Below are positions 5,237 to 40,638 of a DNA stretch of 64,000 nucleotides, piece by piece (position 1 is the first letter of the stretch; the number at the start of each line of letters is the position of its first letter). A model generated the notes under the pieces. It worked only from the letters and a program-made list of their open reading frames with translations. It was not told where the DNA came from and did not search any database. This DNA is from Mangrovihabitans endophyticus (GTDB lineage Bacteria > Actinomycetota > Actinomycetes > Mycobacteriales > Micromonosporaceae). The position numbers were made by a program, and so were the translations under genes. The stretch covers positions 669,720-733,719 of the forward strand of contig NZ_BMMX01000001.1 of assembly GCF_014646155.1 (NCBI RefSeq), given 5' to 3'.

Positions 5237-5250
5237 CCGGTCGGCGGGCG

Positions 5251-6399: not shown

Positions 6400-6624
6400 C
6401 GAGAATCGTCCTCATTTCGTCGATCCGGTGGGGCCGGACGCAGGAGAATTCCACATTCGAAGAATGAGGGAGATGCCCGGACGCCGAGTCAAGAATCGGG
6501 CACTGTTCTTTTCCCGGCTATTCCTGTGCCGGAGCCCCGTTGAGGTGGTGATACCGCGCGAGCATAACCGCCGATCCGTTGCCCGGTATACCGTCGCCCG
6601 CATCCGGATCCGCGCCGGTGGCTC

Positions 6625-7830: not shown

Positions 7831-7848
7831 GAGCCGGGCCCTCCGCAA

Positions 7849-7869
7849 TTTGCGAACACCGATCGCAAA
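7849..7869. promoter_or_regulatory. Inverted repeat, likely TetR operator
   Basis: TTTGCGA and TCGCAAA form perfect 7-bp arms separated by 7 bases in the 97-bp divergent spacer between the glycosyltransferase and tetR genes. Size and place fit an operator controlling both promoters. Confidence 0.7.
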
Positions 7870-7927
7870 GTAGAATAGCAGCCGCAAGGGTTCGGTGGCC
7901 GCGCGGTGAGAGGAGGGCCCGGGAGTA

Positions 7928-8653: not shown

Positions 8654-8669
8654 CCACATCGGGCGCCGC

Positions 8670-9677: not shown

Positions 9678-9755
9678 GGCGACTCCTTCGACGACGCGAG
9701 ACCGGCAACGTCGTCCGAGCGTATATCGGGCGCGGGCCGGCGCGGCAGCGGTCGA

Positions 9756-21798: not shown

Positions 21799-21830
21799 CC
21801 GCACGACGGCCACCACAATGAAAGGTAACA

Positions 21831-22850: not shown

Positions 22851-23196
22851 CCGGGGATGTCGCGGCCGCTGCGACCCGGCGATGACCCACGTCCCGGCCA
22901 AGATCGGCTTTTCGCGGCCCATGGAAACATCGTGCGTGCGCGCTCGGTCGTGTTTCTGTATGAATGCTGAGTGCTCGGCCAATGCCGATAATTGTCTCTT
23001 CATTACAGTCAGATTTCCGACTGGAGTGCGACGTTGACAGTGTGTGCCGTCTTCGGGACCCTGGGATTCCGGCGGAAGAATCTTCTTCACAGAATGGTTC
23101 TTCGGCCGCAATTGTTGCTCTGCCGCAAATGTTGAACGGGGCGGCGTGCACATTGCTGGTCGCGGGCCTTCGGTTCCCGAAAAGAATGGAGGCGGC
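22851..23196 (+). promoter_or_regulatory. Leader and promoter region of the contractile injection cluster
   Basis: 346 bp without a supported gene, AT-richer than its surroundings between about 22960 and 23190. TTGACA at 23034-23039 is a candidate -35 but I see no good -10 after it. The sheath gene's GGAGG (23188-23192) ends the region. The real promoter must be here, or upstream genes read through despite the terminator. Confidence 0.4.
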
Positions 23197-25029: not shown

Positions 25030-25039
25030 GGGAATCCGC

Positions 25040-25561
25040 ATGGCCGAGTTCACGGTGAATTCGAACCGCTTCGACCCGTACAAGAATTTCAAGTTCCTGG
25101 TTCTCTTCAACGGCCAGGTGGTGGCCGGTGTCAGCAAGATCAGTCCGTTGAAGCGCACCACCGAGGTGGTGAAGCATCGCTTCGGCGGCGACGCCAACGG
25201 CATCCGCAAGTCTGCCGGGCGCACCGAGTTCGAAGCGATCACGCTGGAACGCGGGCTGACCCACGACAAGGAGTTCGACGACTGGGCCAACAAGGTCTGG
25301 CTCATCGGGCAGGGGCGCGGCAGCGAGGTGTCGCTGCGCGACTTCCGCCGCGATCTGGTGATCCAGGTGCTCAACGAGTCCGGGCAGGTGGCCGTGGCGT
25401 TCAAGGTCTACCGCTCCTGGGTCAGCGAATACCAGATCGTCGGGGAGCTCGACGCCAATGCCAACGCTGTCGCGATCCAGACGCTGAAGCTGGAGAACGA
25501 GGGTTGGGAGCGTGACACCGAAATCCCGGAGCCCGAGGAGCAGATCCTCGCGCTGCCCTAG
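25040..25561 (+). CDS. Contractile injection system inner tube protein (gp19-like)
   Basis: 173-residue tail tube protein. The N-terminus FTVNSNRFDPYKNFKFLVLFNGQVVAGVSKISPLKRTTEVVKHR and the following GGDANGIRKSAGRTEFEAITLERGLTHDKEFDDWANKVW are hallmarks of the T4 gp19/CIS tube family. It stacks as hexamers inside the sheath. ATG 25040 follows the sheath stop by 10 bp, with AGGGGAA nearby. The end is Glu-rich. Confidence 0.95.
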   Translation: MAEFTVNSNRFDPYKNFKFLVLFNGQVVAGVSKISPLKRTTEVVKHRFGGDANGIRKSAGRTEFEAITLERGLTHDKEFDDWANKVWLIGQGRGSEVSLRDFRRDLVIQVLNESGQVAVAFKVYRSWVSEYQIVGELDANANAVAIQTLKLENEGWERDTEIPEPEEQILALP

Positions 25562-26313: not shown

Positions 26314-26995
26314 CTTCTTCGATCGGCTGCTGGCCCGCCAGCGACCGCTGGACGACCCGGGCGCCGTGACACGGGCCCGCCCGCGAGTGCCGACGCTGTT
26401 CGAGCGGCCCGCGGCCGCCGAGCTGGAGGAGATCTCCGTTGAGCGTTCGGCGTCCGCACCGCCCGTCGTCGTCGCACCACCGTCGCCGCCCGCCGCCCCG
26501 CCGGTGCCCGCAGCCGAGCCACCCGCCCCGGAGCCGCCCGCGCTGGCCGGCCCGCGCGAAGCCGTCGCGACGGAATCCGGACCGGCCGCCGTCGCGGCCG
26601 CGATCGGGTCGCCGTCCGGGCAGGCGCCGGCCCTGGCGCCTCGTACGGTGCTCCCTCCGCCCGTGCTCGCGCCCCCGCCCACGCCGCGGGACGCATCGCT
26701 GCCGGCCCCGGCGGCCGTCGCGGCACCCATCGCCGCCGCGCCGCAACTGGTCGCGCCGGCCACGCCCCGGGTGGTCCCGGCGCCGTCGAGGACGACCCCG
26801 GTCACGCCGGTGGCCGGGCCCCAGCCGGACGGGCGGGGCCGCCGCGCCGACCCGGTCGGCCGCACCGTCAACGTCCACATCGGACGCATTGAGGTCTCCG
26901 CTCCGGTCGACCGGGAGGCCAAGCCGGAGCGAGTCCAGCGGCGTGGACCGGCCCTGGCCCTCGACGAATACCTCGGTGCGGAGGCCGCGCGATGA
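26306..26995 (+). CDS. Pro/Ala-rich CIS-associated protein of unknown function
   Basis: 229 residues, dominated by a Pro/Ala/Val low-complexity run (about 50-180) of the kind seen in disordered linkers. Only the N-terminus (MTDFFDRLLARQRPLD) and the C-terminal VNVHIGRIEVSAP strand (about 188-201) look ordered. That short strand motif occurs in small proteins near phage-tail-like clusters. ATG 26306 overlaps the preceding gene by 8 bases and its stop overlaps the next start. I do not recognise a function; a flexible baseplate or cap tether is a guess. Confidence 0.6.
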   Translation: MTDFFDRLLARQRPLDDPGAVTRARPRVPTLFERPAAAELEEISVERSASAPPVVVAPPSPPAAPPVPAAEPPAPEPPALAGPREAVATESGPAAVAAAIGSPSGQAPALAPRTVLPPPVLAPPPTPRDASLPAPAAVAAPIAAAPQLVAPATPRVVPAPSRTTPVTPVAGPQPDGRGRRADPVGRTVNVHIGRIEVSAPVDREAKPERVQRRGPALALDEYLGAEAAR

Positions 26996-28236
26996 GCAAC
27001 GCCCTCGCCGTCGCGACCGTCACCGAGGCGCTGCGCGGATTCCTGGCCGCCAACCTGCTGCCGGAGATCACCTTCGCGGTGGACGTGACCGCCCGCAAGC
27101 CGTTCACCGAGCCGCCGACCGACCCGACCATCAGCGTGTTCTGCTACCAAGTGACACCCAACCCGGCGCAGCGCAACCGGGACGCGCCGACCCGCACCGC
27201 CGACGGGGTGCTGCTCACCCGGCCCCGTGCCGCGCTCGACCTGCACTATCTGATCAGTTGCTACGGCAACGAGACCGAGGTGGTGCCGCAGAAGCTGCTC
27301 GGCGCCGTGATCCGCGCGCTGTACGTGCAACCGGTGCTGGCGCGGGCCGACATCGAGACCGCAGCCACCCAGCCGTTCCTGCGCGGCAGCGATCTGGCCG
27401 CAGCGCCGGACCGGGTGCGCTTCACGCCGTCCACCCTGGACATCGACGATCAGTACAAGCTCTGGACGATGCTGTCCCAGACGCCGTACGCCCTGTCCGT
27501 CTGCTATCAGGCCTCGTTGGTGTTCATCGAGGGCCGCACCGGCGCGCCGCCCGGGAAACCGGTGGAGCGGCGCACCGTCACGGTGCTGCCCGGCGGCCGT
27601 CCGAGCGTCGAACGGGTGCTGTCCCGGCCCCGCGACAACCCGGACGCCCCACCGGTCGAAGGTCCTGCGCCACGCGACAACGACCTGGTGATCGAAGGCA
27701 ACGCACTGGCGGCGGACGCGGTGTTCGCCCGGCTCGGCCCGGTTGACGTCGCGGTGCCGGCCGACGCGGTCACCGACACCCGGATCCTGGTCCGGCCGCC
27801 CGACGACCTGCCGCCCGGCGTGCATCCGTTGCGGGTGTTGCAGAACGTGGCGGCGGATCAGACGACCACCCTGGTCAAGGTGTTGCAGTCCAATGTCGCT
27901 CCGTTCGTGCGGATGCCCCGGGTGACCGCCACCGAGAACGCGCCGAAGGCGCTCACCATCAGCCTCGATCTGCCGGTGGGCGCCGAACAGCGGGTGCAGT
28001 TGCTGCTCGACGAGTTCGGTTCGCCGGCGGAGCGTGCGCCGCGGGCGTACCAGTTCGACGCGCCGTTCCCGCTGTCCGACGCCCGGCCGCCGGAGCAGGT
28101 GACCGTGCCGCTGGGACCGATGGCGGCCGGGACCTACCTGGTCCGTGTGCAAGTGGACGGCGCGCAGAGCCCGATCGTGCGGGACGCCGCCGGGCAGATC
28201 ACCGGACCGGTCACGACACTGCCCGAGGTGCCGTGA
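26992..28236 (+). CDS. DUF4255 domain protein, CIS tail terminator/cap (Pvc16-like)
   Basis: 414-residue protein with an N-terminal DUF4255 domain (about 1-180: EALRGFLAANLLPEITFAVDVTARKPF, LHYLISCYGNETEVVPQKLLGAVIRAL). In Afp/PVC systems this protein caps the distal end of tube and sheath. Residues about 190-414 form a beta-sandwich (IPT/Ig-like) extension with NLVIEGNAL-like and TYLVRVQVDGAQSPI strands, longer than the minimal family. The start ATGA overlap with the upstream gene indicates coupling. It directly precedes the AAA+ ATPase, as in other CIS loci. Confidence 0.85.
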   Translation: MSNALAVATVTEALRGFLAANLLPEITFAVDVTARKPFTEPPTDPTISVFCYQVTPNPAQRNRDAPTRTADGVLLTRPRAALDLHYLISCYGNETEVVPQKLLGAVIRALYVQPVLARADIETAATQPFLRGSDLAAAPDRVRFTPSTLDIDDQYKLWTMLSQTPYALSVCYQASLVFIEGRTGAPPGKPVERRTVTVLPGGRPSVERVLSRPRDNPDAPPVEGPAPRDNDLVIEGNALAADAVFARLGPVDVAVPADAVTDTRILVRPPDDLPPGVHPLRVLQNVAADQTTTLVKVLQSNVAPFVRMPRVTATENAPKALTISLDLPVGAEQRVQLLLDEFGSPAERAPRAYQFDAPFPLSDARPPEQVTVPLGPMAAGTYLVRVQVDGAQSPIVRDAAGQITGPVTTLPEVP

Positions 28237-28239
28237 GCC

Positions 28240-30189
28240 ATGGCCGGTGACGTGCATCAGGAGGCGCTGACGACGGCAGTGGCGCGGGTGCTGACGCGCA
28301 TCGCGGGCCGCCCCGTCGGTGTACCGTCCGAACCGTCGCACGGCAGCGCGCTCGACCTCGTCTGCTCCTGCTTCGGGCTCACCCCGTTCGAACGCGACGT
28401 GCTGGTGCTGGCGGCGGCCGTGGAGATCGACCCGGCCGCGGCCGAGAGCTGCCTGCAGACCGTCGGCGGGCGCGCATATCCGACGTTCTCCCTGGCCCTG
28501 ACCACACTGGCCGAGCCGCACTGGAGCGCGCTGGCGCCGGTCTCGCCGCTGCGCCGCTGGCACCTGATCGAACTGGAGCCGGACGTCGCGGTGACCACCG
28601 CCCGTCTGCGCATCGACGAGCGGATCCTGCACCTGCTGGCCGGAATGCCGTACCTCGACGCCCGTCTGCATGGTCTGGTCACCCCGCTGGATCCGGCCCC
28701 GCCGCTGCCGGGCACCCAACAGGTCGTGGCGGCGGCCCTGTCCGCGGTGTGGGCCCGAGGATCGGCGAGGGCCACGTTGGTCGGCGCGGACCATCAAACC
28801 CGCCGGGAGGTGGTGGCCGCGGCGGCCACCGACGCGGGGGTACGCGCCTACGCCGCCCGCGCCGCCGACCTGCCCACCGACGCCGTGGAACGGGAGGCGC
28901 TGGCCAGGCTTTGGGACCGCGAGGCCATCCTGCTGCCCGGCGCGCTGGTGGTTGAAGTGGACGATGCCGGCCCGGAGCGCCGAGAGGTGGCCGCCGCCTT
29001 CTGCCGGTCCACGGCCGCTCCGGTGGTGCTGTCCGCCGCCGAGGTGACCTCGAACGACCGGGTGGGTGAGCGGATCCCGGTCGCCGCGCCACTCCCGCAC
29101 GAGCAGCGCGAGCTGTGGGCGGCGGCGCTGGACGGCGCGGTCCCGCTCGCCGAGGCCGATCTCAACCGCCTGGTCGCCCAGTTCACCCTGCCCGGCCATG
29201 TGATTCGCGCGGCTGCCTCGGACGCCCGCCGCCGCGCGTCGTCGGCCGGCCCGTCCGCCCCGTCGTCCGCCCCGGGCGCCTCGGCCGGCGCCGACGCGCC
29301 CGGCGATCCGGTCGCGGGCCGCCGCGGCTCCGGGTACCGCCTGGCGTGGCAGGCCGGTCTCGATCACGCCCGGATGGCGCTGGACGACCTGGGGCGACGC
29401 ATCACCCCCAGGGCGAGCTGGGACGATCTCGTGCTGCCGGCCGCGCAGCGCGCCGTACTGGGTGAGATCGTCGCCCACGTCCGCCGCCGTTCGACCGTGC
29501 ACGACGACTGGGGCTTCGAGGACGTGCTGCGCCGGGGCCTGGGGGTCACCGCGCTGTTCGCGGGGGGCAGCGGCACCGGCAAGACGCTCGCCGCCGAAGT
29601 GCTCGCGAGCGAACTCGGCCTCGACCTGTTCGTCATCGACCTCTCCCAGGTGGTCAACAAGTACATCGGAGAGACCGAGAAGAACCTTCGCCGGGTTTTC
29701 GACGCCGCCGAGCGGGGCGGTGCGGTGCTGCTGTTCGACGAGGCCGACGCGCTTTTCGGCAAGCGCAGCGAGGTCAAGGACAGCCACGACCGGTACGCGA
29801 ACATCGAGGTCAGCTATCTCCTGATGCGCATGGAGGCGTACCGGGGACTGGCCATCTTGACCAGCAACATGAAGAAGTCGATGGACTCGGCGTTCCTGCG
29901 TCGCCTGCGGTTCGTGGTCGACTTCCCGTTCCCGGACGCACCCGAGCGGGCCGAGATCTGGCGGCGGGTGATTCCCGGCCGCGCGCCGGCCGAGGGCCTC
30001 GACACCGCACGGCTGGCCCAGCTCACGGTCAGCGGCGGCAGCATCCGCAACATCGCGCTGTCGGCCGCGTTCCTGGCCGCGGACGAGGGCGTGCCGTTGC
30101 AGATGCGGCACGTGCTGGCGGCCACCCGCACCGAATATCTCAAGCTCGAACGCTCGGTCACCTCGGCGGAGGTGGCCGGATGGCAATGA
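28240..30189 (+). CDS. CIS-associated AAA+ ATPase (Pvc15/Afp15-like)
   Basis: 649-residue ATPase. Residues about 1-400 form a helical N-domain with little recognised similarity; the AAA+ module has Walker A GGSGTGKT (442-449), Walker B VLLFDEADALFG, sensor NMKKS and the arginine-finger region FLRRLRF. Similar ATPases in Afp/PVC are needed to load or recycle the tail machinery and are named for ClpV-like membrane AAA. There is a short Ala/Pro-rich linker before the module. Its C-terminus overlaps the following small gene. It is the only ATPase in the cluster. Confidence 0.88.
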   Translation: MAGDVHQEALTTAVARVLTRIAGRPVGVPSEPSHGSALDLVCSCFGLTPFERDVLVLAAAVEIDPAAAESCLQTVGGRAYPTFSLALTTLAEPHWSALAPVSPLRRWHLIELEPDVAVTTARLRIDERILHLLAGMPYLDARLHGLVTPLDPAPPLPGTQQVVAAALSAVWARGSARATLVGADHQTRREVVAAAATDAGVRAYAARAADLPTDAVEREALARLWDREAILLPGALVVEVDDAGPERREVAAAFCRSTAAPVVLSAAEVTSNDRVGERIPVAAPLPHEQRELWAAALDGAVPLAEADLNRLVAQFTLPGHVIRAAASDARRRASSAGPSAPSSAPGASAGADAPGDPVAGRRGSGYRLAWQAGLDHARMALDDLGRRITPRASWDDLVLPAAQRAVLGEIVAHVRRRSTVHDDWGFEDVLRRGLGVTALFAGGSGTGKTLAAEVLASELGLDLFVIDLSQVVNKYIGETEKNLRRVFDAAERGGAVLLFDEADALFGKRSEVKDSHDRYANIEVSYLLMRMEAYRGLAILTSNMKKSMDSAFLRRLRFVVDFPFPDAPERAEIWRRVIPGRAPAEGLDTARLAQLTVSGGSIRNIALSAAFLAADEGVPLQMRHVLAATRTEYLKLERSVTSAEVAGWQ

Positions 30190-30506
30190 CCGAGCGAGTG
30201 CTGGTGCAGATCGACGCGATCGTGCTGGACGGGGTGCGCCCGGCCGATCGCGAACGGGTGGCCGAGGCGTTCACCCGTGAGCTTTCCCGGCTGCTCGCCC
30301 TCGACGAGATTCCGTCCGTGGACGCCCACCGCGACGCGGTGACCCGCCCGGCGGTGCCACCGGCCGGATCGCCGCGCCGACTCGGACGTCTGCTGGCGCG
30401 GTCGGTGCACGAGACGCTGACCGGCGGAGCGGTTGAGGCCGCCGCGTCCGTGGTTTCGCCGGGCCCCGGGACGGCCGTCGCGGTACCCGGCGGGAGAGCC
30501 TTGTGA
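30180..30506 (+). CDS. Small CIS-cluster protein of unknown function
   Basis: 108 residues (or 106 from ATG 30186, which overlaps the ATPase stop at 30187-30189). The N-terminal half (VLVQIDAIVLDGVRPADRERVAEAFTRELSRLL) looks like a helical small domain; the C-terminus is Ala/Val/Gly-rich. No family is recognised. It is translationally sandwiched between the AAA+ ATPase and the giant gene, whose start overlaps its end, so a role tied to loading or chaperoning the giant protein is plausible but unproven. Confidence 0.6.
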   Translation: MAMTERVLVQIDAIVLDGVRPADRERVAEAFTRELSRLLALDEIPSVDAHRDAVTRPAVPPAGSPRRLGRLLARSVHETLTGGAVEAAASVVSPGPGTAVAVPGGRAL

Positions 30507-33500
30507 CCGGGCCGGCCGCCGTGCCGCCGGCGAAGGCGCAGGTGCGGCGGGAGAACCGGGAACACCAGCGGGTACGCCCGCGACGTAAGCGGGCCCCCGC
30601 CGAACCGCGCGAGATCGTCGAATCGGCCGGCCGGCCGCTGGAACCGTCCGTGCGGCGCGAGCTGGAGGAGCGGCTCGGTCACGACTTCGGCCGGGTACGC
30701 ATCCACGCCGACCGGGACGCGGCGGCGCTGACCGAACTGGCCGGAGCCGACGCGGTGGCCGTGGGAACCGACATCTTCTTCGCCGAGGGGGCTTACCGGC
30801 CGGACACCGTCGCGGGCCGGCGCCTGCTGGTGCACGAGATGATGCACACCATCCAGATGCCGGACGCGGCACCTGTGACCCGGCCGGGACGGGAGCCGGG
30901 CGCGGTGAGCCGCCCCACCGAGCCGCTGGAGCATGAGGCCGAGCGCGCGGCGGACTCCGCGTCCGAGGCGGCCGAGGTCGGCCGGTCCGGTGGCACGCCG
31001 GCCTGGATGCGGTACGCCACGGTGAATCCGGCCCAGTTGCGCATCGAGCAGCTCGACCCGGCGACGCTGGTGGACCGGCTCGTGGCCGGCGTGCTGCGGA
31101 ACCTGCGCGGCGACCCGGCGGACGCGGCCGGCCGGATCCGTTTGCAGTTCGGACGGTTCTCGCCTGAGCTTGAGACGGCGGTGCTGGCGCGGCTTGAGGT
31201 GCGGCTGCCGTCGGCCGAATACCAGCAGGTGTGCGAGTTGGCCGCGCGGGGGAGAGCGGACGCGGAGAACGGCAGCGCGGTGGATTCGGCGACCACCCCG
31301 ATGCCGGTGCCGTCCTCGGTGCCCGGCACGGACGACGGGCCCGCGACCGGCACCGCCCCTTCCGCCGGCTCCGCCCCCATTACCGGCTCCGCCCCCATTA
31401 CCGGCTCCGCCCCTTCCGCTGGCGCCGCCCCTTCCGCTGGCTCCGCGCCCTTCGCGGGCGAGGCCGCCGACGGCGGCATGGCCCAGGACGGCGGCATGGC
31501 CGCCGATGGGGAGAAGGCGACCGGCGCGACGGACACGACGAGTCCGGCGGACGGCGAGACGAGTCCGGCGGACGGCGAGTCCGAGGCGGGCACCGCGGCG
31601 GAGGGCGTCAAGGGTGACGACGACAAGGCGGCCGAGGACGCCGACGCCGAGGGCAAGGACGCCGAGGCCAAGAAAGCCGAGGATCAGAAGTCCGAGGACG
31701 AGGACGGCGGCACGGACGAGAAGGGCGAAGACAAGAAGGGCGACGGCGAGAAGGGCGAGGAAAAGAAGGGCGAAGACAAGAAGGACCAGGGCGAGCAGGA
31801 CCAGGCCGAGGCGGGTCAGGACGGCGAGAAGAAGGAAGGCTCTCCCGGTGCTGCCGCGCCCGGCGCCGCCGCGGGTGCGGGATCGGCCGGCGGCGGGGGC
31901 GCGATGGGCGGCGCGGGTGCGGCCGGTGGCGGCGGCATGGTCGATCTCAGCCAGGTCGACGCCATCGCGGAAGATCCACAGGGGCCGCTGGCGCATCACG
32001 GCCTGCGTGACCGGCCGCGCGGGGCGATGGTCGACGAGATCCCGCCGGGCCAGCAGCCACTGGACGCCGAACCGCTGTCCGACGAGGACGTGCCCGACCC
32101 GGACGCGACTCCCGACTTGCCCGCCGCCGTGCGGGAGGCCGAGCCGCCCGGCCCGGAGGCGTACCTGCCCACGGAGGACCTCGACGTGTCCGCGGTGCCC
32201 ACCGCGGACGCGCTTGAGCTGCCGTCCAGCGGTTCTCCCCCGCCACCACCGGCCGTGCCGTCGTTCCCGTCGCCGCCGAAACCGGCGATCGTGGACGACC
32301 CGAGCGGCGGGCCGGGCACGGTCAAGGGTGTGGCCGAGGCCGCCGAGCGTGAGCGGGAACGCGATCGCGCCGAGCCCGCCGAGATCGGCGAAGCGCCGGG
32401 CCAGGTCTCGCCGGACGCGCTGGACCGCGAGCCGGACACCGCCGCGGACGTCCGCGACGTGGGCGGTCCGGGCTTCGATCCGGCCCTGCCGGGTGCCGCG
32501 CCGACCGGCTCGATGACGGTGCCGGGTCCCGCCGACCGGAACCTCGGCGGGCCAGATTTCGGTGGGCCAGATTTCGGTGGGCCGGGCGTCGGCGGCCCCG
32601 GCGTTGGCGGTCTGGAGGCCGGTGGTCCGGAGGCCGGTGGTCCGGGCGGGGCGGCGGACGACGGTGCAGGCATCGGGGGCCCGGAGGCGGCGCCGGACGT
32701 GAACGGGGCCGCGCCCGGCGTACCGGGAAACGCGTTGCCGACGGACGCCTCGCTGGAAGCCGGCGGCGGAGCGTGCGGCTCGACCCCCGAACCGGCCCCG
32801 GCAGCGGACGGTGGTGGCGGCGCCTGCGGGGCCGCTCCGGTCGGCGGGAAAGCCGAAGAGGAACCGGCGGCGGAGGCCCCCGACCTGTCCGCGCAGGAGC
32901 CGGAAGGCGCGCTTGCCGCCGCTGGGGCGATGCCAGCCACGCAGATGCGCGACTCGTTGGCCGGCGTGGATGCTTCGGTGAACCGTTCGGTGGGTGTGCA
33001 GCGCACCGAACTCGCGGACGCACCGCCGACCATGGCACGGCCGGTCGGGGCGCCGCAGACCCAGCACGGCACGCCGGAATCCGGCGCACCGGCCGCGTCC
33101 AAGCTGGCCAAGCTGCAGGAGGTCACGCCGGAGACGCTCGGCGAGCAGAGGCTGCCGGACGGCCGTCCGGCACCGTCCGGCCCGGCACCGACCGATCGGG
33201 TGGCGGCGCCGCACTTCGCCGACACCGGGCAGGACCAGCTCAGCGAGGCCGAGGTGCGCGGTCTGCAGAACGCGGTGGAGAACGTGCCGACCACCGATCC
33301 CGCGCTGAACCAGACGGTCGGCGCGGCCCCGAAGGTGTCACTGTCCGGCGATGCCGATCCGGCGCTCGCCGACGAGCAGAAGCGCGGGCTCGATCGGCAG
33401 GCCGCGGATCTGCAGAAGGTCGGTCGCACCGATGCCGCCACCGATCTGGGCGAGCACCGGATCTACCCCGACGTGCGGCCCGAGACTCTGCGTGGCTCGG

Positions 33501-36500
33501 TGGCCGGTGGCGGCCCGGCCCCGGCGGAAGCCGGCAAGGGCGGTCCGGCCGCCGGGCCGGCAGCGGCCTCCGGACCCGCGGCCGGCGGCAGCGGTACGCC
33601 GCCGAACGCCATTTCGGCGGTTGTGCTCCAGGAGCGTGGGCCGCAGGTGCAGGCCGGGGTGACGGAGGGCCGGGCGGCGATCACGACCGAACGGCAGGCC
33701 CAGCAGACCGGCGAGACCACCGCGCGCACCGAGAACGCCGCCGCCGTCGACACGGAGATCCAGGCCAACGGCGCCCAGCAGAGCGGCGAACGCATGTCGC
33801 TGAGCGAGATGGCGACCGCGCAGCGCGCGCAGTGGCGCACCGAGCAGGACAAGCTGCTCACCGAGAACGGCCAGAAGGCCGGCGACGAGCACACCAGGCA
33901 GCTCAAACAGATCTCCGACAAGAAGACCTCGACCGACGGCGACATCGAGACCCGGCGGCAGGCCGACGACAAGGACATCGGCGAGAAGAAGCGCAAGGCC
34001 GAGGAGGACGCGCAGAAGGAGAAGGACAACAAGAAGGACGATGACGGCTGGCTCGGATGGGCCAAGTCGAAGATCAAGTCTGCCTTCGACGCGCTCGTCA
34101 GCGTCGTCAAGGGCATCTTCGACCTGGCCCGCAAGGCGATCAACGGAATCATCGAGGGGTTCAAGAAGTTCGTCACCGGCCTGATCGATGCGGCGCGCAA
34201 GGCGATCGTCGGCTTCATCAAGGCGGTCGCCACCGCGTTGATTGCGATCAGCGGGGTGCTGCTGGCCGCGTTCCCGGAGCTGCGGGACAAGTTCCGCAAG
34301 TTCATCGAGGATCGCCGCGATGCGGCCATCAACAAGGTGAACGAGCTCGCGGACAAGCTCAAGCAGGGCGTGCAGAAGCTCCTCGATGCGCTCGCGGCGG
34401 GGTTGACCAAGCTGCTCGATGTGCTTGAGAAGGGCATGCTGGCCGCGATCGAGCTGGCCCGGGCGGCGGTGAACAAGGCGATCGCCTTCGTGGAGAACGC
34501 GATCAAGATGTTCGGTCAGTTCGCGGCGCTGGTGGCCGACATCGCGCCGGATCCGCTCGGCTGGCTCGGCAAGTTCGCCGCGGCGGCCAAGGCGGGCATC
34601 CGCGACCATCTGTGGACCGCGATCAAGACCGCCGTGAAGCAGTGGTTCAACCAGAAGGTCGAGTCCGTCCTCGGCCTCGGCAGGGCGATCTACGACGTTC
34701 TGGTCAAGGGCTGCCTCTCGATGGCCAAGATCGTGCGGATGGCCTGGCAGGCCCTCATCAAGGCCCTGCCCATGATGATCATCACCATCGTCATCGAGAA
34801 GGTCGTCTCGATGATCATCCCGGCCGCGGGCGCCATCATGACGATCGTTCAGGGCGTGATCGCGGCCTGGGGGTCGATCAGCAAAATCATCGCCGCGTTC
34901 GGCAAGTTCTTCGCCTTCCTCAAGGCGGTGAAGGCCGGCGGCGTGACCGCGGCATGCCTGTTCGCCCAGGCGGTGGCGGCGGGCGTGGTGGCGCTGCTCG
35001 ACTTCATCACCAACTTCCTGTTGGTGCGCCTGGTGTCGGCGGCCAAGGGCGTGGCGTCAAAGCTCAAGGGCATCGCCAAGAAGATCATGGCGGCGCTGAA
35101 GCGCGGTGCCTCCGCGGTGCGCAAGGGCGCCGGACGGGTCATCAACGCGGCCAAGCGGGGGGCGAAGGCGACCGCCGGTGCGTTGCGGCGCGGCGCGCAG
35201 CGGGCGGGCGCACTCGGCCGCAGGGGACTGGCCAGGGCGAGGGCGGGCGCGAAGAAGGCATTGGGCGCCGCCCGCAACGGCGCCAGGAGGTTGGGGGCGC
35301 GGTTCGCGAAGACCAAGCTGGGCAAGACCCTGACCAAGGTCGGCAACAAGCTCAAGACGGGCTACCGGAAAGCCAAGGCGAAGCATCAGTCCTGGCGCGA
35401 CAAGCGTACGAAGAACAAGAAGCCGCCGCCGGACAAACAGCAGCGCGTCACCCTCGCGGCCGCCCGGATCAAGCGGACGGTGGACCCGTTGCTGCGTCGC
35501 GGGATCCGCCGGATGGTTCTGCGGCCGGTCCTCGCTGGATTGCGTGCCTGGTATCGGCTCACTTCGCTGGCACCCGAAGGATCACCGGCCGTCCTCACGG
35601 CGACGCTGAACCCCAAGGCACCCGCAGGCGGTCCGGCCAAGCTGCTGCGAAAGCTGGAGCTTCAGCAGACGCTCACCGAGGCGATGCAGAAATACACCCA
35701 ACGCGACCTGGAACGGCAAGGACGTCAGCAGGGCCAGGCGACACGGCGTCCCGAACCCGCGCCCAAGCCGGGCGCGCCGCGATCAGTGCGGGTCGACCCG
35801 CAGCAGCGGCTGGCTCCACAGTTCCAGCGGATCAGCGCGGAGGCGACAGCAGCGAAGGCGGCCGGTCAATCCACTCGGCTCGTGCACGGAGAGACCGGGG
35901 GCGAGGTCGAATGGCGGGGTGGATTCCGCTTCGACCCCGGTGGATACGTCGTGCCGCCGGCCGGCGCCAGTGGCGGTCGGTACCAGGACATCCGGCTCGG
36001 CGCGCCGGACCGGATCGGCGCCACGACGTTGCTCCGCGGCGTGGACGCGGTGAACTCCGGCGACCTCGGCGGTGCGTTGGCTGTCGGAGCGCATCTGAAC
36101 GAGACACTCCATTTCGCCTACCTGCGCGGGATCTTCGAACGCCGTCGAGATCCGCTCATGGCCATCATGGGCCCGGCCGAAGTCAAATGGGCGCTGGCAG
36201 CAGGGAACGAGGTCGGGGTGCGCAAGCGGCTGGACGAGATCCTGTCCCGGGGCAGCATGGTTCTGAACCGATCGGTGGGTGTCGCCTCACGGGTGCGTTC
36301 GGCAACTGATCTGGTCTTCTCCCAAACGAGCGTCAGCGCCCGTTTCGATGCGGTGCAGAGCCCGGAGGTGCAGCGGCTCCTGCGTGACCCGACGCCGTCG
36401 GTTCTCAAGAACGTCCGCGAACAGGAGGAGACGTGGGCTGCGCGCGCCGGTGTCCGGATGCCGAGCGAGATGGAGGCGCATCGGTCGGTGGAAACACCGA

Positions 36501-36673
36501 CCGGGCGGCTCAACCGCTTGGCGCTGTGGTCTAGACGCTTCACGGTCGATGACGTTTTCATCATCGTCGGCCTGGATCAGCAATATGTGGAGAAGATCCG
36601 GCGGTTGGCCGAGCAGATCGTCGACGAGAATCCGGATCTGGAACAGCACCTTCCGAGACTCTGGACACCGTAG
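30503..36673 (+). CDS. Giant DUF4157 protein of the CIS (putative cargo or tape measure)
   Basis: 2056 residues. In order: basic N-terminus; DUF4157 eCIS-core domain about 40-118 with intact HEMMH at 111-115; Pro/Ser/Gly hexapeptide repeats about 285-314; Lys/Glu/Asp-rich stretch about 366-446; Gly/Pro pentapeptide repeats about 682-716; low complexity to about 1045; coiled coil about 1046-1180; hydrophobic/amphipathic helices about 1180-1510; polybasic Ala/Lys/Arg zone about 1513-1643; unrecognised C-terminal domain about 1713-2056. DUF4157 is widespread in extracellular-CIS loci and associated with toxins. Its position next to the AAA+ and DUF4255 genes mirrors Afp14-15-16, where Afp14 is the tape measure; no other tape measure is present. 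I cannot decide between cargo and tape measure. The HExxH may bind zinc. Confidence 0.8.
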   Translation: MTGPAAVPPAKAQVRRENREHQRVRPRRKRAPAEPREIVESAGRPLEPSVRRELEERLGHDFGRVRIHADRDAAALTELAGADAVAVGTDIFFAEGAYRPDTVAGRRLLVHEMMHTIQMPDAAPVTRPGREPGAVSRPTEPLEHEAERAADSASEAAEVGRSGGTPAWMRYATVNPAQLRIEQLDPATLVDRLVAGVLRNLRGDPADAAGRIRLQFGRFSPELETAVLARLEVRLPSAEYQQVCELAARGRADAENGSAVDSATTPMPVPSSVPGTDDGPATGTAPSAGSAPITGSAPITGSAPSAGAAPSAGSAPFAGEAADGGMAQDGGMAADGEKATGATDTTSPADGETSPADGESEAGTAAEGVKGDDDKAAEDADAEGKDAEAKKAEDQKSEDEDGGTDEKGEDKKGDGEKGEEKKGEDKKDQGEQDQAEAGQDGEKKEGSPGAAAPGAAAGAGSAGGGGAMGGAGAAGGGGMVDLSQVDAIAEDPQGPLAHHGLRDRPRGAMVDEIPPGQQPLDAEPLSDEDVPDPDATPDLPAAVREAEPPGPEAYLPTEDLDVSAVPTADALELPSSGSPPPPPAVPSFPSPPKPAIVDDPSGGPGTVKGVAEAAERERERDRAEPAEIGEAPGQVSPDALDREPDTAADVRDVGGPGFDPALPGAAPTGSMTVPGPADRNLGGPDFGGPDFGGPGVGGPGVGGLEAGGPEAGGPGGAADDGAGIGGPEAAPDVNGAAPGVPGNALPTDASLEAGGGACGSTPEPAPAADGGGGACGAAPVGGKAEEEPAAEAPDLSAQEPEGALAAAGAMPATQMRDSLAGVDASVNRSVGVQRTELADAPPTMARPVGAPQTQHGTPESGAPAASKLAKLQEVTPETLGEQRLPDGRPAPSGPAPTDRVAAPHFADTGQDQLSEAEVRGLQNAVENVPTTDPALNQTVGAAPKVSLSGDADPALADEQKRGLDRQAADLQKVGRTDAATDLGEHRIYPDVRPETLRGSVAGGGPAPAEAGKGGPAAGPAAASGPAAGGSGTPPNAISAVVLQERGPQVQAGVTEGRAAITTERQAQQTGETTARTENAAAVDTEIQANGAQQSGERMSLSEMATAQRAQWRTEQDKLLTENGQKAGDEHTRQLKQISDKKTSTDGDIETRRQADDKDIGEKKRKAEEDAQKEKDNKKDDDGWLGWAKSKIKSAFDALVSVVKGIFDLARKAINGIIEGFKKFVTGLIDAARKAIVGFIKAVATALIAISGVLLAAFPELRDKFRKFIEDRRDAAINKVNELADKLKQGVQKLLDALAAGLTKLLDVLEKGMLAAIELARAAVNKAIAFVENAIKMFGQFAALVADIAPDPLGWLGKFAAAAKAGIRDHLWTAIKTAVKQWFNQKVESVLGLGRAIYDVLVKGCLSMAKIVRMAWQALIKALPMMIITIVIEKVVSMIIPAAGAIMTIVQGVIAAWGSISKIIAAFGKFFAFLKAVKAGGVTAACLFAQAVAAGVVALLDFITNFLLVRLVSAAKGVASKLKGIAKKIMAALKRGASAVRKGAGRVINAAKRGAKATAGALRRGAQRAGALGRRGLARARAGAKKALGAARNGARRLGARFAKTKLGKTLTKVGNKLKTGYRKAKAKHQSWRDKRTKNKKPPPDKQQRVTLAAARIKRTVDPLLRRGIRRMVLRPVLAGLRAWYRLTSLAPEGSPAVLTATLNPKAPAGGPAKLLRKLELQQTLTEAMQKYTQRDLERQGRQQGQATRRPEPAPKPGAPRSVRVDPQQRLAPQFQRISAEATAAKAAGQSTRLVHGETGGEVEWRGGFRFDPGGYVVPPAGASGGRYQDIRLGAPDRIGATTLLRGVDAVNSGDLGGALAVGAHLNETLHFAYLRGIFERRRDPLMAIMGPAEVKWALAAGNEVGVRKRLDEILSRGSMVLNRSVGVASRVRSATDLVFSQTSVSARFDAVQSPEVQRLLRDPTPSVLKNVREQEETWAARAGVRMPSEMEAHRSVETPTGRLNRLALWSRRFTVDDVFIIVGLDQQYVEKIRRLAEQIVDENPDLEQHLPRLWTP
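31355..31444 (+). repeat. 18-bp tandem repeat, five units, in the giant gene
   Basis: Five consecutive 18-base units, each close to GCCCC(A/T)(T/-)TACCGGCTCC or GCCCCTTCCGCTGGCTCC, run from 31355 to 31444 and encode a hexapeptide of the form APxxGS or APxxGA. The units two and three are identical. Such in-frame repeats vary in number between strains. Confidence 0.8.
32546..32650 (+). repeat. 15-bp tandem repeat, seven units, in the giant gene
   Basis: Seven units of 15 bases, the first two identical except one base, encode GGPDF, GGPGV, GGLEA and similar pentapeptides. They lie in the low-complexity middle of the protein. Confidence 0.8.
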
Positions 36674-36690: not shown

Positions 36691-37290
36691 ATGATGGAGT
36701 GGGGGTCGGTGCACAGCCGACGCTTCGTGTTGCCGGCGGAGTCCGGTTTCGACACGGTGAACGGGCTGGCCGACGACGTCGGGGCGGGGAAGGTGCGGGA
36801 TGCGTCTCCCGTCGCCGTCGCCGGGTTGATTCGCGAGGTCACCTGGCGGCTGTCACCGAGCAACTTTCTGCACTACGGCCTCGACGCCCCCACTCACCGG
36901 TCGTACGTGCAGGTCACCGGCAGCGAGGATGAAGCGGTAGCGGAGTTCAGCGGAATCGTCTCCGAATACCTCGACGTCGCCGATGACGACGCGCTGATCA
37001 GCGCCGCGGACGCGGCGCGCACCGTGGACGAGCGTCGTGAGGCCCTGATCGTGCTGGGCATGGGCGCACCGCTCACCGTTGATACGCGCTTCGCCAGCCG
37101 GCTCGACGAGGGGCTGCACGACAACGCGGAAAGCGTCCGGGAAGGGGCGCTCTACGGCGCCGCGTACGCCCTGTGGCCGCCGCTCATGACGAGCGTCCGC
37201 CGCATGGCCGCGGACGATCCGGCTGAGGCGATCCGGCGGCAGGCGCAGGCGCTCACCGACTGGCTCCACGAGAACAGTGCGCAGTCATGA
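36691..37290 (+). CDS. Small orphan protein after the giant gene, candidate immunity or chaperone
   Basis: 199 residues with no family I recognise. An N-terminal about 100 residues is mixed; residues about 105-199 look like HEAT-type helical repeats (DERREALIVLGMGAP, SVREGALYGAAYALWPPLMTSVRRMAADDPAEAIRRQAQALTDWL). It starts at ATG 36691, 18 bp after the giant gene's stop, and ends by overlapping the next gene. No comparable gene is part of the usual CIS set, so its position suggests a partner of the giant protein. Its function is unproven. Confidence 0.6.
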   Translation: MMEWGSVHSRRFVLPAESGFDTVNGLADDVGAGKVRDASPVAVAGLIREVTWRLSPSNFLHYGLDAPTHRSYVQVTGSEDEAVAEFSGIVSEYLDVADDDALISAADAARTVDERREALIVLGMGAPLTVDTRFASRLDEGLHDNAESVREGALYGAAYALWPPLMTSVRRMAADDPAEAIRRQAQALTDWLHENSAQS

Positions 37291-37931
37291 CTGTCGGGTT
37301 TCTGGATCTGGGACGGCCGGTACGGTCTGGGCTGGTCACGGTCGATCCGGTCAGCGGGGCGCCGCGGCGGGTCGTGGTCATGCAGTTCAATCCCGACTCG
37401 CTGCAACGCAGCCTTGCGCCGCAGGCGACCGCGGCCGAGGGGCAGGGAGACCGGACGGAGGCGCTGCGCCTCACCGGGCCGGCCGTGGAGACGTGGACCT
37501 TCGATGCCGAGATCGACGCCACCGACCAGGCCGATCAGCCGGCCCCGGACGGGATTCATCCGCAGCTCGCCCTGTTGGAACTGCTGATCCAGCCGCCCAG
37601 CGGGCTGCTGCGGTCCAACCAGGCGCTGGCCGCCGTCGGCACGCTCGAAGTGCTGCCGGTGGAGGCGCCGCTGACCCTGTTCGTCTGGGGCGGGCGGCGG
37701 GTGCTCCCGGTGCGTCTCACCCAGCTTTCCATCACCGAGGACGCGTTCGACGCGAACCTGAACCCGATCCGGGCGACGGTCAGCGTCGGGCTGCGGGTGC
37801 TGACCGTCAACGACCTGCCCACCGGGCATCGCGGCGCCGAGCTCTACCTGGCCCACCTCGTGCAGAAGGAGAACCTCGCCGCCGGCACCAAGGCGGCCGG
37901 CATCTCCGCGTTGGGCCTGACCAGGATCTGA
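37287..37931 (+). CDS. CIS tube-adaptor protein, Pvc7-like N-terminal domain
   Basis: 214-residue protein resembling the tube-like first domain of CIS LysM adaptor proteins (Pvc7/Afp7). Characteristic are VVMQFNPDSLQRSL near residue 30, the ETWTFDAEIDATDQ strand, and FVWGGRRVLPVRLTQLSITEDAFDANLNPIRATVSVGL. The LysM part usually fused to it is here encoded separately in the next gene. The start ATGA overlaps the upstream stop. It joins the inner tube to the baseplate hub. Confidence 0.8.
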   Translation: MTVGFLDLGRPVRSGLVTVDPVSGAPRRVVVMQFNPDSLQRSLAPQATAAEGQGDRTEALRLTGPAVETWTFDAEIDATDQADQPAPDGIHPQLALLELLIQPPSGLLRSNQALAAVGTLEVLPVEAPLTLFVWGGRRVLPVRLTQLSITEDAFDANLNPIRATVSVGLRVLTVNDLPTGHRGAELYLAHLVQKENLAAGTKAAGISALGLTRI

Positions 37932-37945: not shown

Positions 37946-38263
37946 ATGGCGGAAGTGCCGAGGACCAGCCGCTATTTCGGCATCGACGCGGCCGTGCACG
38001 TGCGGGCCGACGGCGTCGAGATTCCCTACCTGCGGCGCCGCCTGCTGCCGCCGGCCGGGCGGCTCACCGTGCTCAGCGAGCATGAGGTGTCCGAAGGGGA
38101 CCGGCCCGACCTGCTGGCATACCGCTATTTCGGGGACGCCGAGCAATGGTGGCGGATCGCCGACGCCAACCCGGTGTTGGATCCGGACGAGCTGACCGCG
38201 ACGCCGGGGCGCCGGCTGCGCATCACGCTTCCCGACGGTGTGCCGGGAGGCACCGGTGGCTGA
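37946..38263 (+). CDS. LysM-type baseplate protein
   Basis: 105 residues. The C-terminal half reads like a CIS LysM domain (LAYRYFGDAEQWWRIADANPVLDPDELTATPGRRLRI). In T4 gp53 and Pvc7 this module clamps the baseplate wedges around the tube. ATG 37946 is preceded by AAAAGGGG at about 6 bases. It is the separated second half of the Pvc7-like protein encoded just upstream. Confidence 0.8.
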   Translation: MAEVPRTSRYFGIDAAVHVRADGVEIPYLRRRLLPPAGRLTVLSEHEVSEGDRPDLLAYRYFGDAEQWWRIADANPVLDPDELTATPGRRLRITLPDGVPGGTGG

Positions 38264-39383
38264 CTCGCCGACGCACCTGAGCCTGCTGATGGGCCCGCGC
38301 CTTGCCGTGCCGGTGCCGCAGCCGGTCACCGACGCGCTGCTGTCCGCGCAGGTGACGATCACGGCGGGCCAACGCAGCGGTTTCCAGCTCGGCTTCGATC
38401 TGGCGAAGAACGCTCTGATCAACACCGCGTTGCTGCCGGCCGGTTTCTTCGACCCGCAGATCCGGGTCATCCTGGTTGCCACCGTGCGGGGCGTGCCCAC
38501 CGTGCTCATCGACGGGGTCATCACCCGCCAGGAGGTGGGGATCAGCAACCAGGCGGGGCAGTCGACGCTCACCGTCACGGGCGAGGACCTGACCATCCTG
38601 ATGGACCTGGAGGAGAAGACCGGCACGTCGTTCTCCGCCCGCCCGCACGCCGCCCAGGTCGCCGAGATCATCGGCGGATACGCCCAGTGGGGCATCGTCC
38701 CGCTGGTCATCCCCGAGTTGTTCCCGGACACCCCGATGCCCACCAACCGCATCCCGTTCCAGCAGGGCACCGACCTCGGCTACCTGAACGAACTGGCCAA
38801 GGCCAACGGTTTCGTCTTCTACCTCGACCCCGGCCCGGCGCCGGGGGTGAGCAGGGCCTATTGGGGTCCGGAAGTCCGCCTCGGCGTGCCCCAGCACGCG
38901 CTGAACGTCAACATGGACGGTCTGTCCACGGTGGATGAGTTGACGTTCAGCTTCGACGGCTCGGCCAAGGAAGACCTGCAGGCACGGGTGGAGATTCCGG
39001 GCACGCGCGTGTCCACCGTGCTGCCGGTGCCGGAGGTGAGCGTGCTGCGCCCGCCGCTGGCGCTGAAGCCCGCGCCCGCGCTGAAGAAGCGGACGCTCAA
39101 GGACACCGCGAACAAGGACGCCACTCAGGTGCTGGCCGAGACGCTGGCCAAGGTGGCCGAGTCGGCGGATGCGGTGACCGGATCCGGGCAGCTCGACGTG
39201 CTGCGCCACGGCTTCGTGCTGCGGTCGCGGGAACTGGTCGGCGTGCGCGGCGCCGGCATCACCTACGACGGCTTGTATTTCGTCAAGAGCGTCACGCACA
39301 ACCTGCGGCGTGGCGCGTACACGCAGAACTTCACCCTGGCCCGCGAGGGCCTGATCCCGCTCACCCCGGTCGTCGTCCCCTAG
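38256..39383 (+). CDS. Baseplate hub protein (VgrG/gpD-like)
   Basis: 375-residue protein with the phage late-control gpD/VgrG hub fold: SAQVTITAGQRSGFQLGFDLAKN, VTGEDLTILMDLEEK, and FLNELAKANGFVFYLD-like (here YLNELAKANGFVFYLD) are its typical strands. It forms the trimeric hub to which tube and spike attach. GTG 38256 was chosen because GGGAGG lies about 5 bases upstream; the frame is open slightly further upstream. The start overlaps the LysM gene stop. The spike OB domain is in a separate gene that follows. Confidence 0.87.
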   Translation: MADSPTHLSLLMGPRLAVPVPQPVTDALLSAQVTITAGQRSGFQLGFDLAKNALINTALLPAGFFDPQIRVILVATVRGVPTVLIDGVITRQEVGISNQAGQSTLTVTGEDLTILMDLEEKTGTSFSARPHAAQVAEIIGGYAQWGIVPLVIPELFPDTPMPTNRIPFQQGTDLGYLNELAKANGFVFYLDPGPAPGVSRAYWGPEVRLGVPQHALNVNMDGLSTVDELTFSFDGSAKEDLQARVEIPGTRVSTVLPVPEVSVLRPPLALKPAPALKKRTLKDTANKDATQVLAETLAKVAESADAVTGSGQLDVLRHGFVLRSRELVGVRGAGITYDGLYFVKSVTHNLRRGAYTQNFTLAREGLIPLTPVVVP

Positions 39384-39419: not shown

Positions 39420-39926
39420 GTGGCGGATGCCCTGCTCGGCAAGTTCCGTGGCACGGTTGCGGACAACGCGGACCCGGAGTTGCGTGGCCGCCTGCGGGTC
39501 AACGTGACAGGTGTGCACGACTACGACCCGTCGTCGTGGGCGCTGCCGGCCTTCCCGCTGGCCGGATCGCAACTGGGTGTCTTCGCGGTGCCGAGGGTCG
39601 GCGCGCGGGTCTGGCTGGAGTTCGAGCAGGGCGACATCAACACCCCGATCTGGACCGGCTGCTTCTACGACACCGCCGCCGACGTGCCCGATGAGGCGCT
39701 GACCGGTCCTCCAGGCTCGCCCAACATCGTCGTGCAGACCGGCGGCGGGCACCGCGTCGTGCTCTCCGATCTGCCCGGTGGTCCCGGCATCTCGGTGACC
39801 CACGCGAGCGGCGCCAAGATCGAGATCAACGACTCCGGCATCACGCTGGACAACGGCAAGGGCGCGGTCATCTCACTGTCCGCCACGCAGGTCGACATCA
39901 ACAAGGGCGCGTTGACCGTCAAGTAG
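39420..39926 (+). CDS. Spike protein with gp5/gpV OB-fold domain
   Basis: 168 residues. The N-terminal OB-fold (FRGTVADNADPELRGRLRVNV, WALPAFPLAG, RVGARVWLEFEQGDINTPIWTGCFY) is the gp5/VgrG spike base. The rest reads as beta-strand repeats (SVTHASGAKIEINDSGITLDN, SLSATQVDINKGALTVK), the short beta-prism of the spike. GTG 39420 has GGAGG at about 8 bases. It links hub and PAAR-like tip. Confidence 0.9.
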   Translation: MADALLGKFRGTVADNADPELRGRLRVNVTGVHDYDPSSWALPAFPLAGSQLGVFAVPRVGARVWLEFEQGDINTPIWTGCFYDTAADVPDEALTGPPGSPNIVVQTGGGHRVVLSDLPGGPGISVTHASGAKIEINDSGITLDNGKGAVISLSATQVDINKGALTVK

Positions 39927-39934: not shown

Positions 39935-40267
39935 ATGCCAGGAAACATCTTGCACGTCGCGGCCACCATCATGTGCCCGCACGGCGGGCGGGGGACGGTG
40001 CAGTCCACGCAGGCACGGGTCACCGTGTCCGGCAACGCCGCGGCGACGGTGGCCGACACGTACACGGTGACCGGTTGTCCCCTCAACGTCTCCGGCAAAC
40101 CGCAGCCGTGCGTGACCATCCGGTGGCCGGGACCGGCGGTCCGGGTCACCGTCAACGGCAGCCCGGTGGTGCTGTCCACCTCGACCGGCGTGTGCCAGAG
40201 CGCCGAGCAGGCGCCGCAGGGCCCGCCGTCGGTGCCGGGCGTGCAACCGCGGGCGGTGGCGCAGTGA
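39935..40267 (+). CDS. PAAR-like spike-tip protein
   Basis: 110-residue protein with the composition of a PAAR-like metal-bound cone: conserved Cys14 and His16 (TIMCPHGG), Cys48 and Cys59 (TGCPLNVSGKPQPC), and Cys87, plus many Gly/Thr/Val strand residues. Such proteins sharpen the VgrG spike. ATG 39935 follows the spike gene by 8 bp. The Pro-rich tail (about 92-110) may protrude and could tether cargo. A zinc site is inferred, not shown. Confidence 0.75.
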   Translation: MPGNILHVAATIMCPHGGRGTVQSTQARVTVSGNAAATVADTYTVTGCPLNVSGKPQPCVTIRWPGPAVRVTVNGSPVVLSTSTGVCQSAEQAPQGPPSVPGVQPRAVAQ

Positions 40268-40638
40268 GCGGGCGGCTGGACGTGGCGTTCCCGTTCGCGA
40301 TCGACGGGCGCGGGCGCACCGCGGAGGCGGGCTACGACGACCATGTCGCCGACATGATCGAGCTGCTGCTGTTCACCAGCCCGGGGGAGCGGGTGATGCG
40401 CCCGGACTTCGGCTGCGGCCTGGGCGACCTGGTCTTCGAACCGAACAGCATCGAACTGGTGGCCACGTTGCAGGTGTCCGTGCAGGCGAGCCTGCAGCGC
40501 TGGCTGGGTGACGTCATCGACATCGGCGCCATCGAGATCGACCGGGACGAGGGCACGCTCTCGATCCGGATCAGGTACACGGTGCGGGCCACCGGCACGG
40601 CTCGCGACGACGTGTTCACGGGGAGGACGGCGACATGA
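40264..40638 (+). CDS. gp25/GPW-like baseplate wedge protein
   Basis: 124 residues of the gp25-like lysozyme-related baseplate family, with DVAFPFAIDGRGRTAEAGYDDHVADMIELLLFTSPGERVMRPDFGCGL and ELVATLQVSVQASLQRWL. It nucleates the sheath at the baseplate (Pvc9/Afp9). GTG 40264 overlaps the tip gene's TGA. Confidence 0.92.
   Translation: MSGRLDVAFPFAIDGRGRTAEAGYDDHVADMIELLLFTSPGERVMRPDFGCGLGDLVFEPNSIELVATLQVSVQASLQRWLGDVIDIGAIEIDRDEGTLSIRIRYTVRATGTARDDVFTGRTAT

Follow-up and report, generated by a model that had tools for sequence, protein, structure and literature searches.

Tme (BN159_7576) of Streptomyces davawensis is described as a tapemeasure-related effector of contractile injection systems (CIS), and the work that reported it also defined tme-like genes (PMC11126660). 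In tip-tagged eluates Tme was enriched along with the spike and the tube initiator, it carries a C-terminal nuclease reported to promote sporulation and DNA release of the producer, and particles were still imaged with tip-truncated Tme; the idea that the C-terminus is exchanged was already raised there (PMC11126660). Here we analyse a putative effector of this kind encoded in a 64,000-nucleotide stretch of Mangrovihabitans endophyticus DNA (contig NZ_BMMX01000001.1, positions 669,720 to 733,719 of the forward strand), hereafter the window. The gene encodes a protein of 2056 residues (the giant), lies in a CIS cluster and is followed by a small gene (the partner) and by the gene of an Afp7-like hub protein. 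We found that the C-terminal tip of the giant is replaced among related clusters and that the partner, a putative cognate gene, is usually exchanged with it, which the first-pass annotation of the window had missed.

Other described effectors share parts of this design. Sle1/Sle2 of Streptomyces lividans and relatives combine a tape-measure-related scaffold with diverse C-terminal modules, their DUF4157 partner contacts the tube initiator, and a relative in Micromonospora eburnea has a neutralising gene downstream; unlike in the giant, DUF4157 resides on a protein of its own, and the genes of the pair are found directly 5' of the sheath gene (PMC13277306). The AlgoCIS proteins Cgo1 and Cgo2 are DUF4157 cargo that fills the tube lumen and differ in their C-terminal domains, but tubes form without them and the term 'tape measure' occurs 0 times in the main text (PMC8894135). 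Growth inhibition by Cgo1 is reported to be independent of the metal-site motifs (PMC11297309). Haloarchaeal DUF4157 toxins have a directly downstream gene that prevents toxicity, as we propose for the giant, whereas no tape-measure fusion is mentioned where these pairs are described and they are proposed to ride on the spike (PMC11566945). Toxin/antitoxin pairs are known from other CIS, and many tested CIS-associated toxins are described as having no putative immunity gene (PMC8213781).

The giant resembles Tme in its N-terminal DUF4157 domain, long, probably disordered part, putative hydrophobic helices and tape-measure homology, and both are encoded by the largest open reading frame (ORF) just 5' of the baseplate genes and end in a known or putative effector module (PMC11126660). 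The tips differ, that of Tme being an EndA-like nuclease and that of the giant having no family match; as for a cognate partner gene of Tme, the words 'immunity' and 'antitoxin' occur 0 times in the main text (PMC11126660). Judged from its sequence, the giant has an architecture already published as Tme and is a further member of that kind, whose tip is unclassified and whose partner is of the HEAT class. A tape measure and an effector in one chain had been called unusual in the first-pass annotation, an expectation that Tme (2024) and Sle1 (2026) contradict as precedents. A literature search that covered main texts of mostly open-access papers yielded no report of a tip-matched partner exchanged with the tip in Tme-type clusters.

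Related clusters and coupling of tip and partner

With an alignment of hub proteins as query we located 39 loci in named genomes, which together with the window and locus L033 form 41 non-redundant clusters (L032 and L034 duplicate L078 and L049 and were excluded from all counts). The records are named as Streptomyces, Kitasatospora, Saccharothrix, Streptoalloteichus, Crossiella, Umezawaea, Kibdelosporangium, Catenulispora, Wenjunlia, Nucisporomicrobium, Paractinoplanes and, once, Rhodococcus rhodnii. A large ORF lies 5' of the hub gene in all 40 other clusters, with a gap of at least 468 bases between them; it is cut by a contig end in seven and broken in L087. The helical zone of the giant is matched in all of them except two cut ones (L056 and L063). 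This recurrence in 40 further clusters argues that the giant is not a chance ORF. Its frame is open from the GTG at 30503 to the stop at 36673, the G+C content at its third codon positions is 0.87, and one reverse frame read across the same bases contains stops.

Tips, taken as the last 290 residues, and partners were sorted into classes by phmmer (E < 1e-3) in 40 clusters, L087 being left out. A partner gene occupied the slot between giant and hub gene in all 40, and 11 tip classes stood against 8 partner classes. Every pair of clusters with the same tip class also shared the partner class (190/190), while 102 pairs differed in tip class but had the common HEAT partner class and 488 differed in both. 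The adjusted Rand index of tip and partner classes was 0.70, a value reached by 0 of 5000 shuffles, which do not model relatedness.

Relatedness was controlled by hub (Afp7) identity in 38 of the 40 clusters (L055 and L058 left out). Among the 42 pairs with at least 90% identity the tip class differed in 34 and the partner class in 29, and none combined the same tip with a different partner. Nearest Afp7 neighbours shared the tip class in 6 of 38 cases. Together with the 34 differing close pairs, this indicates that tips change faster than the surrounding cluster. In the window, the hub protein is 93% identical to that of L049 and 73% to that of L052, but the nearest relative of its partner is in L052 (E 8.6e-37, compared with 5.6e-19 for L049), so that the partner follows the tip rather than the cluster. 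By these comparisons, the scaffold is kept while the tip changes, and the same tip class means the same partner class across the 40 clusters.

DNA breakpoints

We compared the DNA of 14 chosen cluster pairs. In ten of them similarity extended to a giant residue between 1586 and 1827 and then vanished, returning only near the start of the hub gene. The breakpoints lay at residue 1634 (window/L049, Nucisporomicrobium flavum), 1625 (L085/L051), 1827 (L067/L068), 1815 (L069/L072), 1798 (L071/L072), 1748 (L076/L084), 1782 (L081/L082), 1586 (L080/L082), 1596 (L064/L066) and 1709 (L054/L062, L062 being cut), and some of these pairs also showed shorter gaps within the linker. L070/L074, which have the same tip class, aligned to giant residue 1855 and through the end of the partner. 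The more distant pair window/L052 gave a fragmented alignment, of which a single 60-base match falls in the tip, and L063/L056, both cut by contig ends, gave fragments only. L067/L065 were 89% identical only to residue 288, with weaker fragments (63-72%) to residue 1579, and similarity resumed at the hub gene. Since in most of the near-identical pairs the DNA loses similarity within the giant and regains it at the hub gene, tip and partner are exchanged together, and on these alignments tip plus partner is the usual exchanged unit.

Two loci deserve separate mention. L051 (labelled Rhodococcus rhodnii) and L085 (labelled Kibdelosporangium aridum) have hub proteins with a rounded identity of 1.00 over the compared stretch and are 91.6% identical in the DNA around the hub gene, and their tip classes differ; their likeness may reflect either a recent transfer or a mislabelled record. 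In L087 (Streptomyces sp. SCUT-3, 4971-10001) the giant ORF has 1075 amino acids and no HEXXH, and tip-like and partner-like pieces lie in separate frames, which may be due to decay or to a sequencing error.

Seventeen loci around eCIS_core matches in related genomes and in the organism's own were also inspected. The helical zone was found only in L032, L033 and L034, the others encoding different proteins or other CIS types. Among viral contigs 106 stretches matched the hub-query pattern, none of which was confirmed.

Identity of tips and partners

Only L052 (E 1e-72) and L053 (2.6e-5) have tips clearly related to that of the window, and restricting the comparison to the last 290 residues still leaves the three in one class. 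The first-pass annotation could not place this C-terminal domain, and by sequence it indeed has no family match; in a structure model, of moderate to low confidence, helices predominate and there is a single small strand region. A forced alignment of this tip with 20 others leaves two positions invariant, a glutamate and an arginine (residues 1879 and 1882). Common descent with the core class of tips is a guess, to which only the shared partner class lends some strength.

A domain scan was run on 34 sequences: 16 partners, the tip of the window and 17 other tips, which came either from clusters outside the window's partner class or from L087. Three tips matched a BMT5-like methyltransferase (L051, E 6.2e-31), three matched Endonuclea_NS_2 (L078, E 1.6e-6) and that of L083 matched DUF7587. 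The partner of L082 is a SUKH-4 protein (E 1.6e-17), that of L061 gave a sub-threshold match to SUKH-1, and that of L084, of another class, a sub-threshold match to HEAT (E 0.017). The window's partner matched no Pfam family, nor did most other partners when scanned singly match any family. HEAT repeats were found in 16 of the 22 aligned members of the window's partner class, the window copy not being among the 16.

By tblastn, neither the window tip nor that of L052 was found on plasmids. Of the 397 genomes of the order searched with the A2 tip profile, 2 gave a match, and the partner profile matched 5 among 394 genomes of the class; each set includes the window's own genome. A tip-profile match lay in the flanks of two of the five partner loci (window and L099), and the partner flanks in L100, L101 and L102 gave none at E 0.001. 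In genome G106 an A2-profile tip (E 6.5e-14) ends a 1225-residue frame, and the frame of a HEAT partner (E 1.6e-27) overlaps its end; tblastn detected no match between this frame and the N-terminal part of the giant, i.e. tip and HEAT partner sit on another carrier.

Beyond Actinomycetota, tblastn with residues 1041-1650 led to seven plasmid records of Aureibacter, Gloeothece and Paracoccus. On pAT2 of Aureibacter tunicatorum (L092, 10384-15488) similarity to the helical zone is followed by an AHH nuclease end and then an Imm11 gene (E 4.1e-7). On plasmid Cy782201 of Gloeothece verrucosa (L093, 8519-12594) a tape-measure-like protein of 1221 residues, possibly an orphan carrier, precedes a CdiI_ImmP gene (E 9.6e-49). 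The Paracoccus relative has an eCIS_core domain; baseplate genes are annotated 5' of it, and the gene behind it belongs to no family.

Domain layout and tape-measure homology of the giant

The mosaic layout given in the first-pass annotation was borne out on all points tested here: a single open frame, an intact DUF4157 domain with HEMMH, a repeat-bearing low-complexity region, and a hydrophobic and a polybasic zone (Table 1). H111, E112, H115 and E143 are invariant in 33/33 aligned full-length giants. HEXXH with a downstream acidic third ligand is the motif rule for gluzincin-like zinc metallopeptidases, and the giant has this motif. The HEMMH and the invariance of E143, the candidate third ligand, make the metal site look intact, and it may bind zinc and be catalytic. 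Short GSAP-type and GGP-type repeats are visible in the translation of the linker. The hydrophobic zone spans about residues 1190-1514, with hydropathy peaks near 1233-1260, 1413-1456 and 1478-1514, and counterparts of the last two are present in 33/33 full-length giants. The polybasic zone that follows has a net charge of +11, +16 and +16 per 50 residues.

Residues 1184-1592 match four PHROG families of phage tape measures (58, 1272, 5493 and 4070; best E 4.3e-10). Such similarity was found in the giant only, among ten cluster proteins scanned that included the ORFs without Pfam assignment, in agreement with the earlier claim that the cluster holds no other tape-measure candidate. With residues 1041-1650 as query, tblastn returned ten phage records, all ten annotated as tape measure proteins (E 2e-7 to 1e-3; 21-25% identity; one phage present twice). 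The position before the hub genes is also that of a phage tape measure; phage tape measures are not known to have an eCIS_core domain or an exchangeable tip with a partner. A separate tape-measure gene outside the cluster, which the first-pass annotation regarded as speaking against this role, does exist in the genome (G000:C8, 646 aa, PhageMin_Tail), but it looks like an ordinary prophage-type gene.

Lengths were compared in 33 of the 41 giants, eight being dropped because of contig ends (L050, L056, L062, L063, L074, L077, L079) or breakage (L087). In all 33 the counterpart of residues 1041-1514 measures 472-476 residues, whereas lengths differ for the linker (569-845), the polybasic zone (78-241) and the tip (260-390). 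At 35-60% identity, insertions and deletions (indels) per 100 residues amounted to 0.36 in the helical segment, 0.41 in the 381-aa protein encoded behind the hub gene, 0.55 in the N-terminal domain, 1.39 in the spike and 4.48 in the linker. Several neighbours yielded few usable copies (of 41: tube 2, Baseplate_J 4, cap 8, gp25 20), and the bulk of this control therefore comes from the hub protein, the 381-aa protein, the spike and the giant's own segments. The similarly low rate of the 381-aa protein suggests that a fixed fold alone can give constant length. The constant length of the helical segment is compatible with a ruler, as it would be with a rigid fold.

Interpretation

From the domains, tape-measure homology, synteny, tip exchange and tip/partner coupling observed here we favour, with a probability of about three in four, the reading that the giant is a Tme-type effector, i.e. 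a descendant of a phage tape measure that has become CIS cargo and whose tip is exchanged with a likely immunity gene. The eCIS_core domain, the tape-measure matches and the position before the hub gene in 41 clusters support the first part; the SUKH-4, SUKH-1 (sub-threshold), Imm11 and CdiI partners and the BMT5-like and Endonuclea_NS_2 tips support the second. The first-pass annotation had left open whether the protein is cargo, tape measure or both. Both fits the homology best. The length-setting role it implied would fit the constant helical length, which does not prove it. Tape-measure-derived cargo is the best answer, the tape-measure label holding as ancestry and the cargo label by analogy to Tme.

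In the mechanism that we propose, the N-terminal eCIS_core domain would dock the chain at the hub/spike side, an orientation that we presume, and the helical zone would thread the tube lumen and may set tube length; the AAA+ protein may assist loading. Association of the giant with particles and its contact with hub or tube initiator are assumed from what is reported for Tme and Sle2. Contraction would eject the chain, the hydrophobic helices may engage a membrane, and the tip, a putative toxin, would act in a recipient or in the producer. The tip would be a replaceable module exchanged with the gene behind it, most likely its cognate immunity gene. In a tentative extension that we consider less likely than not, a single chain would serve as ruler, membrane-crossing device and warhead: a segment of ~474 residues would set tube length, and recombination just behind it would swap warhead and immunity gene.

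The reported assembly of AlgoCIS tubes, mostly empty, without both DUF4157 cargo proteins (PMC8894135) would also suit a giant that is cargo only, with tube length fixed by others (cap, ATPase) and the helical segment serving as a rigid, membrane-active domain. The indel rate of the 381-aa protein points the same way, constant length not being special to rulers. The tape-measure homology of the giant, its position, which is that of a phage tape measure, and the lack of another candidate among the ten proteins scanned argue against a pure cargo role, which we hold to be a serious possibility with the odds somewhat against it. Another question is what the partner does. A tip-specific loading chaperone or adaptor would be exchanged because it must recognise the tip, and the pairing of the HEAT class with tips not demonstrably related, the window copy without an immunity family match and the sub-threshold HEAT match in the L084 class would fit such a role. 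It seems unlikely in view of the SUKH-4 gene in the same slot of L082, the Imm11 and CdiI genes behind relatives elsewhere and the eight partner classes unlinked by phmmer at the threshold used, which look more like immunity genes than like one chaperone system.

The tip might instead be a developmental effector inside the producer, for programmed DNA release or cell death, so that its exchange would be adaptation of a self-directed role. The effect of the Tme nuclease tip on its producer (PMC11126660) and the finding that Sle1 tunes the producer's own responses (PMC13277306) are in line with this. Against it stand the established immunity families among the partners and the frequent replacement of tips between near-identical clusters with the partner carried along. 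Such replacement is typical of polymorphic toxins, and the clusters show a conserved scaffold with an exchangeable C-terminal module and a co-exchanged downstream gene, as polymorphic toxin-immunity systems do. We consider a purely developmental role quite unlikely.

Several observations weigh against a Tme-type effector with tip and immunity gene. The window tip and partner match no toxin or immunity family, and the tip is missed by a profile of 19 core tips (hhalign probability 6.7%). Tips with no demonstrable relationship share the HEAT partner class (the 102 pairs above), which would also be expected of a general chaperone. The near-identical pair L067/L065 loses similarity behind residue 288, so exchange does not appear to be always limited to the tip. 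The immunity cases L092 and L093 lack an eCIS_core match, and no CIS genes are annotated in the stretch examined. Finally, the reported target of Tme in S. davawensis is the producer itself rather than rivals (PMC11126660).

If the tentative extension with ruler and warhead in a single chain were right, the particles would be a polymorphic toxin system for competition among close kin, built on a tape measure. A tip-matched partner in a fixed slot of 40 clusters of one CIS lineage makes the question of weapons against kin directly testable. The slot before the hub gene offers a rule for reading new effector/partner pairs, and the breakpoints mark the natural boundary of cargo exchange.

The CIS cluster of the window

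The cluster lies on the + strand of the window (G+C content 71%; Table 1). The order DUF4255, AAA+ and giant noted in the first-pass annotation stands, with a 108-aa gene before the giant and the 199-aa partner behind it to be added. The giant begins with a GTG that overlaps the stop codon of the 108-aa gene. Its own stop is followed after 17 bases by the start of the partner, whose stop in turn shares bases with the start of the hub gene. These genes look co-translated. The 716-aa and DUF6519 genes lie 3' of the two Baseplate_J genes, and the next largest assigned CIS gene after the giant encodes 1216 residues. The closest named relative is N. flavum NEAU-24 (L049 = L034), whose proteins are 77-94% identical to those of the window except for the 229-aa protein (55%), the partner (28%) and the tip.

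Table 1. Features of the CIS cluster and of the giant protein (positions in the window)
Feature	Position	Strand	Remarks
Sheath	23044..25029	+	
Tail tube	24998..25561	+	start codon uncertain
T4-baseplate-family gene	from 25588	+	between tail tube and 229-aa gene
229-aa gene	26306-26995	+	between T4-baseplate-family gene and cap
Cap protein, Pvc16_N (DUF4255)	26992..28236	+	
AAA+ ATPase, Afp15/Pvc15 position	28240..30189	+	
108-aa small protein, 5' of giant	30180..30506	+	kept in L032-L034
Giant Tme-like protein, 2056 aa	30503..36673	+	ORF, eCIS_core, PHROG match, recurrence in relatives
eCIS_core (DUF4157), residues 45-119	30635..30859	+	PF13699, E 1.8e-24
HEMMH, residues 111-115	within eCIS_core	+	third-ligand candidate E143 lies behind the domain at 30929-30931
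Low-complexity linker, probably disordered, residues 250-1040	31250..33622	+	length differs among relatives
Helical/hydrophobic segment, residues 1041-1514	33623..35044	+	near-constant length in relatives
Polybasic stretch, about residues 1501-1650	35042..35452 (residues 1514-1650)	+	
Conserved pre-tip segment ending WYRLT, residues 1651-1687	35453..35563	+	
C-terminal tip, residues 1688-2056	35564..36670	+	closest relative L052 (Streptomyces sp. CB02056)
199-aa partner gene, candidate immunity protein	36691..37290	+	between giant and CIS_tube hub
CIS_tube family protein, Afp7-like hub	37287..37931	+	anchor for locating relatives
381-aa protein	38238..39383	+	weak VgrG-related similarity, E 0.0017, far below the model's cut-off
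Spike, Phage_base_V	39420..39926	+	
gp25 and two Baseplate_J genes	39973..47116	+	gp25 begins at 39973

A second, weak eCIS_core match in the same genome lies on another contig in a 418-residue frame (G000:C13:75296-75514), and no CIS protein of the window was matched in the 20 kb around it. The 229-aa protein is proline-rich. Directly 5' of the CIS cluster, at 19469-22787, the window contains ATP-binding cassette transporter genes of the glycine betaine type.

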